Source: Smithella sp.
GTDB lineage: Bacteria > Desulfobacterota > Syntrophia > Syntrophales > Smithellaceae
Direction of reading: 5' to 3'
DNA: 64,000 bases
Assembly: GCA_012510495.1 (NCBI GenBank)
Contig: JAAZHX010000109.1
Span: 62,001 to 126,000, forward strand
The notes under the pieces were generated by a model. The model was not told the DNA's origin. It saw only the letters and a list, made by a program, of their open reading frames with translations, and ran no database searches. Shown in pieces: positions 53,514 to 58,713 of the stretch. The position numbers were made by a program, and so were the translations under genes. The number at the start of each line of letters is the position of its first letter. Position 1 is the stretch's first letter.

Positions 53514-53590
53514 TGGCAGGCCAGGAGGGACTTGAACCCCCAGCATCCGGATTTGGAGTCCGGCGCTCTATCCATTAGAGCTACTGGCCT
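53514..53590 (-). tRNA. tRNA-Trp(CCA), CCA encoded
   Basis: AGGCCAGTAGCTCTAATGGATAGAGCGCCGGACTCCAAATCCGGATGCTGGGGGTTCAAGTCCCTCCTGGCCTGCCA. Confidence 0.95.
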
Positions 53591-53604
53591 GCGTCAATTC
53601 CCCG

Positions 53605-53754
53605 CTACTTGGTTTCTCTGTGCAGTTTGTGTCCGCGGCAAAACTTGCAGTATTTCTTCATTTCCAGACGGCTTTGCATGGTGCGCTTGTTTTTCGTCGT
53701 CGTGTAATTTCTCTGTTTGCATTCCGTACAGGCCAAAATAATGTTGTTTCTCAT
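53605..53754 (-). CDS. rpmG: 50S ribosomal protein L33
   Basis: [49 protein letters not shown] (49 aa). Confidence 0.96.
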
Positions 53755-53767
53755 ACGTCTCCTTCAC

Positions 53768-53843
53768 TGGAGCCCACGACCAGGATCGAACTGGTGACCT
53801 CATCCTTACCAAGGATGTGCTCTACCGACTGAGCTACGTGGGC
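53768..53843 (-). tRNA. tRNA-Thr(GGT)
   Basis: GCCCACGTAGCTCAGTCGG...CATCCTTGGTAAGGATG...TCCA cloverleaf. Confidence 0.95.
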
Positions 53844-53879
53844 GCGGCGTTCCTTGTCCGTCAGCGCCAAAAAGCAACC

Positions 53880-53955
53880 TGGAGCGGGAAACGGGATTCG
53901 AACCCGCGACCCTCAGCTTGGAAGGCTGACGCTCTAGCCCCTGAGCTACTCCCGC
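53880..53955 (-). tRNA. tRNA-Gly(TCC)
   Basis: GCGGGAGTAGCTCAGGGG...GTCAGCCTTCCAAGCTGAG...CCA. Confidence 0.95.
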
Positions 53956-53969
53956 TTATTTCAAAAAAC

Positions 53970-54054
53970 TGGTGGAGGGGGGAGGATTTGAACCTCCGTA
54001 GGCTCCGCCGGCAGATTTACAGTCTGCTCCCTTTGGCCGCTCGGGAACCCCTCC
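53970..54054 (-). tRNA. tRNA-Tyr(GTA) with long variable arm
   Basis: GGAGGGGTTCCCGAGCGG...GCAGACTGTAAATCTGC...ACCA, 85 nt. Confidence 0.95.
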
Positions 54055-54070
54055 GGGTATGTTGCTCATC

Positions 54071-54146
54071 TGGAGCTGGCGATGGGACTCGAACCCGCAA
54101 CCTGCTGATTACAAATCAGCTGCTCTACCGATTGAGCTACGCCAGC
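54071..54146 (-). tRNA. tRNA-Thr(TGT)
   Basis: GCTGGCGTAGCTCAATCGG...GCTGATTTGTAATCAGC...CCA. Confidence 0.95.
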
Positions 54147-54314: not shown

Positions 54315-54881
54315 TTAATCCGCATCGCTGAAATAATTCGCGGAGAAGATATAAATCTCCGTTTCCTTGTCTTTCCACGCCTTATGGGGCAGGCCCGCTT
54401 TAAAGCACGTCTCCCTAAGAAACGTTTCCCGGTCCCATCCGCACTCGGTCGCCACCTGCGGCAGGAGCAAACCGGAATTATAGCCCCTGACGATGTAAAG
54501 ACCGTGTTTACCCACCTCAATTTCATCAATGTTCTGAATCTTCTGCAGAGGGCTCAACACCGATATTTCATATCGTAAATCCCTTATTTCCTCGCTCTTG
54601 ACGGAAGGAAAACGCGGATCATGAAAAGCCGCGGCAACCGCCATTTCCTGCACCGTATCTCCCAGAGGTTTAACCGCCTTGATGTATCCGATGCAGCCGC
54701 GGAGATGTCCCCTTTTCTTCAAGGTGACAAACGCGCCTCTTTTTTCCTTCAGGATGGGCAAATCCAGCGATAGCCTGGGCAAGTCGCGGTTCCCGACTTT
54801 GGCGATGACCGCCCTTTTGGCAATTTCCAAAAGCGTCGTTTTTTCCTGATCTGTCAGCTCCATATTAACCTCTTTTTTCAT
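54315..54881 (-). CDS. AmmeMemoRadiSam system protein A (AMMECR1 family)
   Basis: FVTLKKRGHLRGCIGYIKAVKPLGDTVQEMAVAAAFHDPRFP. Confidence 0.93.
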   Translation of the reverse strand: MKKEVNMELTDQEKTTLLEIAKRAVIAKVGNRDLPRLSLDLPILKEKRGAFVTLKKRGHLRGCIGYIKAVKPLGDTVQEMAVAAAFHDPRFPSVKSEEIRDLRYEISVLSPLQKIQNIDEIEVGKHGLYIVRGYNSGLLLPQVATECGWDRETFLRETCFKAGLPHKAWKDKETEIYIFSANYFSDAD

Positions 54882-55699
54882 TGGTAATAAACGGCTGCGG
54901 CATAGCCGACCACGGATTGAAGATCCCCTGTCGCTTCTCCGGAATGGGCGTATTTCAAAAGCAGCGAATGAGAAGCGCCCAGCCCTCTGGCGGCCATCAT
55001 GGTTACCGCCATCGGCCCTCCGCCGCAGGCTTCTGTTTGACCGCGCGCCAGATCCTCCAGAAGACCTTCAGCATCGTTGTCCCGCACGTGCTTAAGCGTT
55101 GCGCCATCCAGCGCTCTTGCTTTTTCATCCTCATGAAAATGCGACAGATCGCTGCTGGCGACAACCAGCAAACGCCGGTTTTTACCTGCCTGAACGATCA
55201 CTTTCGCCAGCTTCCGGCAGGTTGCGGCGTCCTGATCCCCCATCACGAGCGGAACAAAAGAGAAATCGCCCAGCGCCATCTGCAAAAAAGGAAGTTGAAT
55301 TTCCAGGGAATGCTCGTGGGCGTGAGCCGCCGGGAAATCGACGAGAATCCCGCTCGCGCGCGTCATTTCTTGCGCCAGTTTTTCATGGACCGGCACATGG
55401 CCCAGGGGGGTTTCAAAAGCCCCGCTGCCCCACACGGAAACCCCCGGAAAGGCGACCCTGTGGCTCGGACCGATCAAAACCACCCCATCGTAATTTTTTC
55501 CCCGGACCAGTTGGTAAGCATAGGCCGCCACTTGGCCGGAATACCGGTAGCCGGCATGAGGCGCAATCAGGCCGACCACCTCTCCGGAAAGCCCCCGGTC
55601 GGGGACATTGCGGAAATATTCGGCAATGTCCCGCTTCAACACCGGCGGATCGCCTGGATACCAGGAACCGGCAATAACGGATTTTCGCACATTATCCAT
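54878..55699 (-). CDS. AmmeMemoRadiSam system protein B (Memo family)
   Basis: AGSWYPGDPPVLKRDI...LIAPHAGYRYSGQVAAYAYQLV...HEHSLEIQLPFLQ; overlaps AMMECR1. Confidence 0.94.
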   Translation of the reverse strand: MDNVRKSVIAGSWYPGDPPVLKRDIAEYFRNVPDRGLSGEVVGLIAPHAGYRYSGQVAAYAYQLVRGKNYDGVVLIGPSHRVAFPGVSVWGSGAFETPLGHVPVHEKLAQEMTRASGILVDFPAAHAHEHSLEIQLPFLQMALGDFSFVPLVMGDQDAATCRKLAKVIVQAGKNRRLLVVASSDLSHFHEDEKARALDGATLKHVRDNDAEGLLEDLARGQTEACGGGPMAVTMMAARGLGASHSLLLKYAHSGEATGDLQSVVGYAAAVYYQ

Positions 55700-55712: not shown

Positions 55713-58031
55713 TTACTTTAAACGCCAGATCGTCCCCTGCTCACTGTCCAGAACGTCAACGCCGAGCAGAGCCAGCTCGTTTCTCAATGCATCTGCCTCC
55801 TGCCACAGGCCGGCTTGCCTGGCTTTTTCTCTTTTCTGAATCAGTTCGTTGACCTTCCAATCGTCAATTTGTTGTTTGAAATCCATTATCAGCAGGACAT
55901 CATTGATTTTTTGCAGCGCCTCAAGAATCTTGCGGGCGTCTTCCCCGCTGATCCCCCCGCCAGCCAGAGGCGCGTTGACTGAACCGATAAATTCAAAAAG
56001 CGCCGCCAGTGCGGCGGAGATATTGAGGTCATCGTCCAGGGCATGCTCAAAGGCGTGGTTAACATTATAAATCAACTGGTCCGCCTCCGGAAAATTCGGA
56101 GCGGTGTTTCGGATCGTCTGCAACCGGGAAATGAAGGTGTCCATTTTCCTGACGGTGTTTCGGGCCATTTGCAGAGCATTTGCCGAATAGCTGATCGGCT
56201 TGCGGTAATTCATGCCCAGCAGGAAAAAACGGACATCCCTGCCGCCGTACCCGCTTTGCCTGAGGTCATCCATCGTTACGATATTGTTCAATGACCGGGA
56301 CATTTTTCGACCGTCCACCAGGATCAGTTCTGTCCCGATCCAGTGTTTTGCGCCGCTGTGTCCAAAGCAGGCCTTGTTGATCGCGATCAGATTCTCGCAG
56401 TGGGGAAAGGTTTCATCCGCTCCGCTGATATGGATGTCATAGGCCGTTCCCAGATATTTCCGGGAAATGGACGCGCATTCCAGATGCCAGCCCGGCCGGA
56501 CATTGCCCCACTTCGTCTTGGAATAAATCCCCCTTTTCAGCTCTCCCAGGCTGGCCCTTTTCAAAAGCGCGAAGTCTGCTGGAGAGTCCTTTTCGTAATC
56601 ATCCAGATCGACCGACCGGCCTGTCCTGGTTTTGGCCAGATCAATATTGGACAGACTGCCGTAGTCTCCCAGTTTGGAAATGTCGAAATAAACGGAGTGC
56701 AGCTTCTCGTAGGCGTATCCGCGATCGACCAGCTTTTCAACGATCTTGAGCGTGGCATCGACATCTTCGGAGGCTCTCACGTAGATATTGTCCGGACGGA
56801 TCTGCAAAAACCGGGCATCCTCCAGAAAAATCCGCAAATATTTATCGGAATAATCCGCGAGGTTCATGCCCGCCTTTTCCGACCCCTTGAGAGACTTGTC
56901 GCTGCAATCCACGATATCGACGACATGTTTGACGGCGTACCCTTTGAAGGTCAGGTAGCGGCACAGCAGATCGGACACCACCAAACGCCGGTAATTTCCC
57001 AGATGAGGAGCGTCATGAACGGTCGGGCCGCATGTGCGCAGCCGCACCTCCTCCGGCTGCAACGGACGGAAAAGTGTTTTCCGGCGCTTGATCGCGTTGT
57101 AAAAACTGATCGTCGCCAGTTCTTCTTTGACCGCGAACAATTCCGTGCTCAGGTAGCGCTCCCCGCTGTCCGGGAAAATGACCACGATCGTCCCTTCTTC
57201 CTGTTGACGGGACTTCCCGGCTGCGACAAACATGGCCGCGCCGGAGCTCATGCCGGCTAGGATGCCTTCTTCCCGGGCCAGTCGGCGCGACATTTCAAAA
57301 GCGTCTTCATCCAGGATATTCACCTTTTCATCCAGGAGCTTCTTGTCATAGATCCCCGGACGGTAGGACTCGCGCATGTTTTTGAGGCCCTGTATCTTAT
57401 GCTGCAGGTAAGGCTCAACGCCGATGATCTGAATGCGCGGATTGAGTTCCTTGAGTCTTTGCGCAATGCCCATCGCGGTCCCGGTGGTCCCAAGCGTGAC
57501 CACCACCGAGGAGACGCGACCTTCCGTCTGATCCCAGATTTCCTGCGCCGTGCCGAAATAATGGGCGGAGATGTTATCGGGGTTGTTGAATTGATCGGTG
57601 CCGAAGTACTTTTCCGGATTTTCCCTAAGCATCCGGTAGGCTACCTCGATGGCCCCGTCCGTCCCCTGCGCCGCGGGGGTAAAAATCAGTTCGGCGCCCA
57701 GCGCCCGCAGAATCTTTTTGCGCTCCTCACTGGCCGCTTCGGACATCGTCAGGCACAGCTTGTAGCCTTTCGCCGCGGCTACCATAGCCAGTCCGATGCC
57801 GGTATTGCCGCTGGTTGCCTCCAGAATCACCTTCCCGGGTTTCAAATCACCCCTTTTTTCGGCGTTTTCGATCATGCTGAGCGCGGTACGGTCCTTAATG
57901 GATCCCCCGGGATTCGCGGACTCCAGCTTGGCCAGAATCGTGACCTTTTTATTCGGGTTCAGCTTCGAGATTTCCACCAGCGGCGTGTTGCCGATGCGAT
58001 CAATAATGCTTTTATACAAGTTCATCATCAC
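55713..58031 (-). CDS. cysteine synthase :: cysteinyl-tRNA synthetase fusion protein
   Basis: N-terminal GNTPLVEISKLNP...NPGGSIKDRTALSMIE...TSGNTGIGLAMV (CysK); C-terminal RTCGPTVHDAPHLGNYRR...GWHLECASI...FPHCENLIAI...KMSRSLNN (CysRS); one 772-aa ORF. Confidence 0.92.
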   Translation of the reverse strand: MMMNLYKSIIDRIGNTPLVEISKLNPNKKVTILAKLESANPGGSIKDRTALSMIENAEKRGDLKPGKVILEATSGNTGIGLAMVAAAKGYKLCLTMSEAASEERKKILRALGAELIFTPAAQGTDGAIEVAYRMLRENPEKYFGTDQFNNPDNISAHYFGTAQEIWDQTEGRVSSVVVTLGTTGTAMGIAQRLKELNPRIQIIGVEPYLQHKIQGLKNMRESYRPGIYDKKLLDEKVNILDEDAFEMSRRLAREEGILAGMSSGAAMFVAAGKSRQQEEGTIVVIFPDSGERYLSTELFAVKEELATISFYNAIKRRKTLFRPLQPEEVRLRTCGPTVHDAPHLGNYRRLVVSDLLCRYLTFKGYAVKHVVDIVDCSDKSLKGSEKAGMNLADYSDKYLRIFLEDARFLQIRPDNIYVRASEDVDATLKIVEKLVDRGYAYEKLHSVYFDISKLGDYGSLSNIDLAKTRTGRSVDLDDYEKDSPADFALLKRASLGELKRGIYSKTKWGNVRPGWHLECASISRKYLGTAYDIHISGADETFPHCENLIAINKACFGHSGAKHWIGTELILVDGRKMSRSLNNIVTMDDLRQSGYGGRDVRFFLLGMNYRKPISYSANALQMARNTVRKMDTFISRLQTIRNTAPNFPEADQLIYNVNHAFEHALDDDLNISAALAALFEFIGSVNAPLAGGGISGEDARKILEALQKINDVLLIMDFKQQIDDWKVNELIQKREKARQAGLWQEADALRNELALLGVDVLDSEQGTIWRLK

Positions 58032-58636: not shown

Positions 58637-58713
58637 CGGGATGTGGCCCAGCTTGGTAGGGCACTGCGTTCGGGACGCAGGAGTCGCGCGTTCAAATCGC
58701 GCCATCCCGACCA
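58637..58713 (+). tRNA. tRNA-Pro(CGG), CCA encoded
   Basis: CGGGATGTGGCCCAGCTTGGTAGGGCACTGCGTTCGGGACGCAGGAGTCGCGCGTTCAAATCGCGCCATCCCGACCA. Confidence 0.96.

Follow-up and report, generated by a model that had tools for sequence, protein, structure and literature searches.

Gcn2 and HisZ show that copies of aminoacyl-tRNA synthetases can turn into regulators. In Gcn2, uncharged tRNA is sensed at a HisRS-like pseudo-active site; HisZ, a paralogue of HisRS, binds histidine and gates HisG (PMC4335047, PMC9437257). For cysteinyl-tRNA synthetase (CysRS), a 2022 review of synthetase duplication gives MshC and CysRS* as the only paralogues, the latter also in Desulfobacterales, and contains no fusion with cysteine synthase (CysK) (PMC9437257); a 2022 survey of cysteine-encoding systems likewise leaves cysteine synthase unmentioned (PMC8762117). 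Our search of the open-licence literature found no description of a CysK-CysRS fusion, although an earlier report elsewhere is possible.

The protein described here joins a cysteine synthase to a CysRS-like half in one chain. Like MshC and CysRS*, it contains a duplicated CysRS with an apparently new task, but neither of these is fused to CysK; MshC does not act on tRNA, and CysRS* lacks the anticodon-binding domain, whereas the fusion has a CysS_C domain and so does not qualify as CysRS*. Gcn2, with its HisRS-like domain, and the HisZ-HisG pair share with it a synthetase-derived domain, seemingly without an aminoacylation role, that is linked to amino-acid supply. Those domains derive from HisRS, a class II enzyme, and that of the fusion from CysRS, which belongs to class I. 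Moreover, HisZ senses histidine as a subunit of its own and Gcn2 is a kinase; a Gcn2-like response of the fusion to uncharged tRNA is suggested by residue conservation. The best explanation, which we hold at a probability of about one half, is a CysE-independent, probably O-phosphoserine-using cysteine synthase that would be gated by a tRNACys-binding pseudo-synthetase, because the module for tRNACys recognition has been kept and the chemistry of charging discarded.

The fusion gene and its distribution

In the window, the whole 64-kb stretch of DNA analysed, the fusion gene occupies positions 55713–58031 on the minus strand, starts with GTG and runs for 772 aa in one uninterrupted frame with no internal stops. 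Its product consists of a CysK/CysM-type PLP domain (aa 1–300; 57132–58031, minus strand) followed by a CysRS-like half (aa 308–770; 55722–57110, minus strand). Pfam PALP matched aa 11–288 (E = 2.5e-73) and tRNA-synt_1e aa 321–624 (E = 7e-75), the second half also containing DALR_2 and the CysS_C anticodon-binding domain, and the protein scored above the cut-offs of both NCBIfam models, cysKM and cysS. Both folds are complete in an AlphaFold2 model built from a 48-row alignment (pLDDT 86.7). In Foldseek comparisons the CysK half aligned with 2bhs (TM normalised to target, 0.95) and the CysRS half with 8qhp and 1u0b (0.91 and 0.82), the last being the complex of E. coli CysRS with tRNACys. An earlier note on this DNA had read the gene as CysK and CysRS in a single polypeptide, and the open reading frame, domain matches and model bear that reading out.

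Directly downstream lie Memo- and AMMECR1-like genes of the AmmeMemoRadiSam set (54315–55699, minus strand), an arrangement kept only in Syntrophales relatives, where local synteny upstream comprises a DUF1178-like gene, a gene of type II secretion/pilus type and an rRNA methylase. Beyond this local synteny, no conserved operon partner was found. A search of the surroundings of the gene for RNA elements, T-boxes included, returned tRNAs alone. A tRNA-Pro gene lies upstream of the fusion on the opposite strand (58637–58713, plus strand), and a cluster for Trp, Thr, Gly, Tyr and Thr adjoins secE/nusG and ribosomal genes (53514–54146, minus strand). The 64-kb window contains no tRNACys gene.

The search for other such fusions that the earlier note had proposed was positive in 140 of 297 Desulfobacterota genomes of at least 95% completeness; the CysK-CysRS fusion is a phylum-wide family and no oddity of one genome. 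Among the best 80 of 154 loci in the genome scan, CysK comes first and CysRS second in all, nearly all are intact single reading frames, and essentially all are labelled Desulfobacterota/Deltaproteobacteria; the exceptions to intactness are L040, which has internal stops, and a few loci cut by contig ends. In L040, whose contig was deposited as Syntrophus aciditrophicus, the matched frame is interrupted by six stops. An assembly chimera was rejected as the origin of the fusion, since many independent assemblies and closed single-contig genomes carry it. A plasmid collection yielded one match covering both halves, in two pieces of an unannotated Acetoanaerobium record.

In a tree of CysRS halves, 142 fusions fall on one side of a branch with SH-aLRT 100, opposite 39 standalone CysRSs of Desulfobacterota and that of E. 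coli. The fused CysRS halves are thus one clade, separate from standalone CysRS; the fused CysKs also cluster in the CysK tree (SH-aLRT 91). An apparent standalone CysRS of the fused type in G259 and an apparent standalone CysK in G108 proved to be contig-end cuts. An apparent loss of the anticodon domain in G067 (locus L144) was traced to a frameshift near residue 598, with the remainder in another frame; both pieces are present in this single-contig genome, the break being either a sequencing error or real.

The CysRS-like half and the separate CysRS

Compared with bacterial CysRS (TIGR00435; E. coli 1li5/1u0b), the CysRS-like half has the same fold, domain order and anticodon-binding residues and most of the zinc ligands, but it is joined to a cysteine synthase, is never the sole CysRS, has altered or erased HIGH and KMSKS motifs, and carries a conserved block of its own in the connective peptide region.

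The second cysS that the earlier note had asked for exists in the window genome as a canonical gene of 490 aa (G000:C291:12819-14288), so the fusion is not the only CysRS there; a binning contaminant was rejected as its source because the protein is 90% identical to the copy of a congeneric genome. A separate cysS accompanies the fusion in 140 of 140 genomes, each with at least two CysRS matches, and in none of them is the fusion the sole CysRS. A search with the standalone CysRS of the window genome at a very strict cut-off recovered a copy of ~490 aa in all but a few genomes, and the misses checked among fusion genomes (G135, G157 and G176) have a second CysRS match in the count given above. 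More than one CysRS-like match also occurs in seven f38 genomes without the fusion (two each in G129, G170, G188, G223, G269, G285 and G330) and in G192 of f42 (four); these extra matches are possibly CysRS* or another paralogue.

Motif positions are given in E. coli CysRS numbering, after a reference sequence whose check covered its length and the expected places of ligands and motifs. The window fusion has HLGN as a degraded HIGH motif (aa 343–346; 56994–57005, minus strand), KMSRS as the KMSKS equivalent (aa 576–580; 56292–56306, minus strand) and the segment HCENL (56385–56402, minus strand), in which His544 is the zinc ligand H234, Cys545 stands for H235 and Leu548 for E238. Across 138 fusions, the HIGH residues H37, G39 and H40 are retained in 65%, 75% and 9%, and the KMSKS residues K266, K269 and S270 in 78%, 1% (Arg in 54%) and 46%. 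The zinc ligands C28, C209, H234 and E238 are retained in 86%, 90%, 99% and 51%, with all four present in 64 of 138 and the first three in 117 of 138 (85%). Near-canonical HIGH, KMSKS and zinc ligands occur together in one fusion of the 138, and across the family HIGH and KMSKS depart from the motifs of a functional CysRS. On the tree of 142 fusions, KMS[KR] is broken in 75, by at least 12 changes, and the zinc triad has undergone at least five; no zinc site is left in families f45, f77, f94 and f48.

The earlier note had interpreted the fusion as channelling newly made cysteine to tRNA, that is, as an active bifunctional enzyme whose CysRS half charges tRNACys. The Syntrophales, the clade of the window, speak for this reading: H-x-G-[NSG] and KMSRS are constant there, three zinc ligands are kept, and the window fusion passes the NCBIfam cysS cut-off. 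Cys at position 235 is always paired with a hydrophobic residue at 238 in fusions, and in the Syntrophales it accompanies the loss of E238, possibly re-liganding the zinc site as C, C, H, C. Given these constant motifs and the Cys235 exchange, residual catalysis is conceivable, and the CysRS-like half of Syntrophales may still form the adenylate. Charging by the fusion is nonetheless improbable, and it cannot be what the whole family has in common, because a separate CysRS is constant and the motifs are eroded, the second His of HIGH and the second Lys of KMSKS being nearly gone and whole motifs erased in many members. Thus the fusion and its cysteine-making half stand from the earlier interpretation, whereas channelling by an active synthetase lacks support for the family, more than half of whose members have degraded ATP motifs. 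An inactive synthetase beside a canonical cysS, which that note had named as evidence against itself, is largely what the family displays, the Syntrophales largely keeping their ATP motifs.

The anticodon-binding signature of the window fusion (R734, R738, W743, D747, R750 and D762; 55746–55832, minus strand) corresponds to R423, R427, W432, D436, R439 and D451 of E. coli, which we take to be the anticodon contacts in the E. coli CysRS complex. Among 138 fusions, R423, D436, R439 and D451 are each present in 99% and R427 in 96%; all five occur jointly in 137 of 142, the departures being four R427K substitutions and one frameshifted copy, and the signature needs four changes on the tree of 142 fusions. 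In the 41 fusions with a destroyed ATP site, counted with four highly degenerate f48 members included, R423, D436, R439 and D451 are retained in 100% and R427 in 98%, while W432 is retained in 73% and otherwise replaced mostly by Phe or Tyr. The four f48 members have lost their ATP and zinc sites almost entirely and retain RR-F-DRD. Over the solo-invariant columns, this group retains 0.93 in the anticodon domain versus 0.55 in the catalytic domain (P = 0.002). The CysRS half also has invariants specific to the fusions, namely R43, S141, L189, L192, T196 and K300 together with an insertion block, VDL..Y.K..P.DF.LLKR..L..LK.G....T.WGNVRP (aa 474–513; 56493–56612, minus strand), which differs in standalone CysRS; their existence indicates that this half is under a constraint of its own. 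Retention of the recognition residues is well supported, and by it the fused half would still recognise tRNACys through its anticodon-binding domain.

A sensor of free cysteine analogous to HisZ, in which the pseudo-active site would bind cysteine through zinc and feedback-inhibit CysK without involving tRNA, could draw on the three zinc ligands kept in most fusions and on the compensating Cys swap of the Syntrophales. It is unlikely nonetheless, as the zinc site is gone in the four families named above and conservation in the CysRS half is highest at the anticodon residues, for which a cysteine sensor would have no use.

The cysteine synthase half and CysE

The earlier note had also described a complete-looking CysK domain, a description that the residue table of 142 fusions upholds, the PLP lysine and the TSGNTG, GTTGT and SSG loops being present in all or nearly all. 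K46 (the PLP lysine), S74, G75, N76, T77 and G78 of the TSGNTG loop, G181, T182, G184 and T185 of the GTTGT phosphate cup, and S262 and G264 of the SSG loop are each found in 142 of 142.

When serine acetyltransferase (CysE) was counted at E < 1e-40, it was present in none of the 65 fusion genomes that have no CysK-like gene besides the fused copy, but in 72 of the 75 with a second CysK (Fisher, 7.6e-37, for 140 related genomes with kinship ignored). Weaker matches to the CysE model occur in 6 of the 65, among them the window genome, in which two weak partial matches to the family (5.5e-31 and 6.8e-26) make the absence of CysE less clear-cut than in closed genomes. A set of 20 genomes, most of them closed, often has no CysK-like gene other than the fused CysK, and a full-length serine acetyltransferase is then absent; a second CysK, where present, is usually accompanied by CysE, often adjacent. 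That the fused CysK works independently of CysE is well supported by these gene contents.

The fused domain resembles CysM/CysK, especially CysM of Mycobacterium tuberculosis (3dki), in having all PLP and catalytic motifs, a basic residue at the position of Arg220, and a function that does not require CysE, and differs in bearing a CysRS half; phosphoserine use by the fusion is predicted from sequence. CysM of M. tuberculosis is an O-phosphoserine sulfhydrylase, and Arg220 is read here in the role that the CysM literature gives it. The aligned residue, Lys217 (57381–57383, minus strand), is present in 142 of 142 fusions, and Gln takes its place in 8 of the 9 further CysKs that fusion genomes encode, the majority of which are paired with CysE. 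Lys also occupies this position in 17 of 18 unfused CysKs, mainly from genomes lacking CysE. Because CysE independence coincides with Lys217, the fused CysK probably uses O-phosphoserine and sulfide; five non-fusion genomes with CysE also hold a K-type CysK among several, which makes Lys217 a lead and no proof. The unfused CysKs with Lys217 at L188–L201 (f50, f58, f64 and others), from genomes with little or no CysE, are possible relatives of the fused CysK.

tRNACys as a possible gate for cysteine synthesis

Sequence supports well the fusion itself, the separate CysRS, the erosion of synthetase motifs, the retention of tRNA recognition and the independence from CysE; we infer the phosphoserine substrate, the binding of tRNA, and allosteric gating and its direction. 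Under tRNA-gated synthesis, the CysRS paralogue on the cysteine synthase would no longer be the cysteinyl-tRNA synthetase of the cell but would still be a reader of tRNACys. The pseudo-synthetase would dock tRNACys, and the CysK active site would respond to its occupancy or to whether the tRNA is charged: either uncharged tRNACys would turn cysteine synthesis on, or it would be turned off by cysteine or charged tRNA. Sulfide-rich cells would then make cysteine in step with translational demand. The repeated loss of the loading machinery alongside a preserved tRNA-reading part suggests that cysteine production may be controlled by tRNACys, although the kept anticodon residues imply tRNA binding and not regulation. 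We put at slightly below even odds the specific claim that, in much of the Desulfobacterota, a phosphoserine-dependent cysteine synthase is under the direct control of tRNACys charging within one polypeptide, with neither a riboswitch nor a transcription factor involved.

In a bolder form of this idea, the PLP half would convert phosphoseryl- or seryl-tRNACys into Cys-tRNACys, as a fold-type-II analogue of SepRS/SepCysS. That system likewise ties tRNACys and a PLP enzyme to phosphoserine and sulfide, but SepRS is class II and SepCysS a PLP enzyme of fold type I. The kept tRNACys-recognition residues and a phosphoserine-type CysK in genomes lacking CysE would suit on-tRNA chemistry, and there are other organisms in which a direct route exists beside an indirect one (PMC8762117). 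A SepRS-type route was rejected, however, as SepRS was absent from all 20 fusion genomes tested while the M. jannaschii control was positive; most fused halves could not load tRNA themselves, and there is no known source of misacylated tRNACys. With SepRS absent and no loading enzyme evident, on-tRNA conversion is a rather remote prospect and less likely than tRNA gating. That the CysRS half has no function and is merely carried along, decaying slowly since an ancient gene fusion, is scarcely credible: its catalytic motifs do decay repeatedly, but the C-terminal half is full-length and intact in nearly all of the best 80 of 154 loci, with a strict anticodon signature and the fusion-specific invariant block.

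We know of no amino-acid-making enzyme with a tRNA-reading pseudo-synthetase inside its own chain. If tRNA-gated synthesis is true, it would couple cysteine supply to translation demand directly at the enzyme level in sulfide-bathed organisms, and would account for cysteine synthesis without CysE in many sulfate reducers and syntrophs. It would also correct an annotation error: L116 (G079) has HVGL and KLSSE in place of the two ATP motifs, yet it scores above the NCBIfam cut-off for cysteine--tRNA ligase and would be named a synthetase by automatic annotation, and because at least this degraded member passes, genomes seem to carry two cysS.
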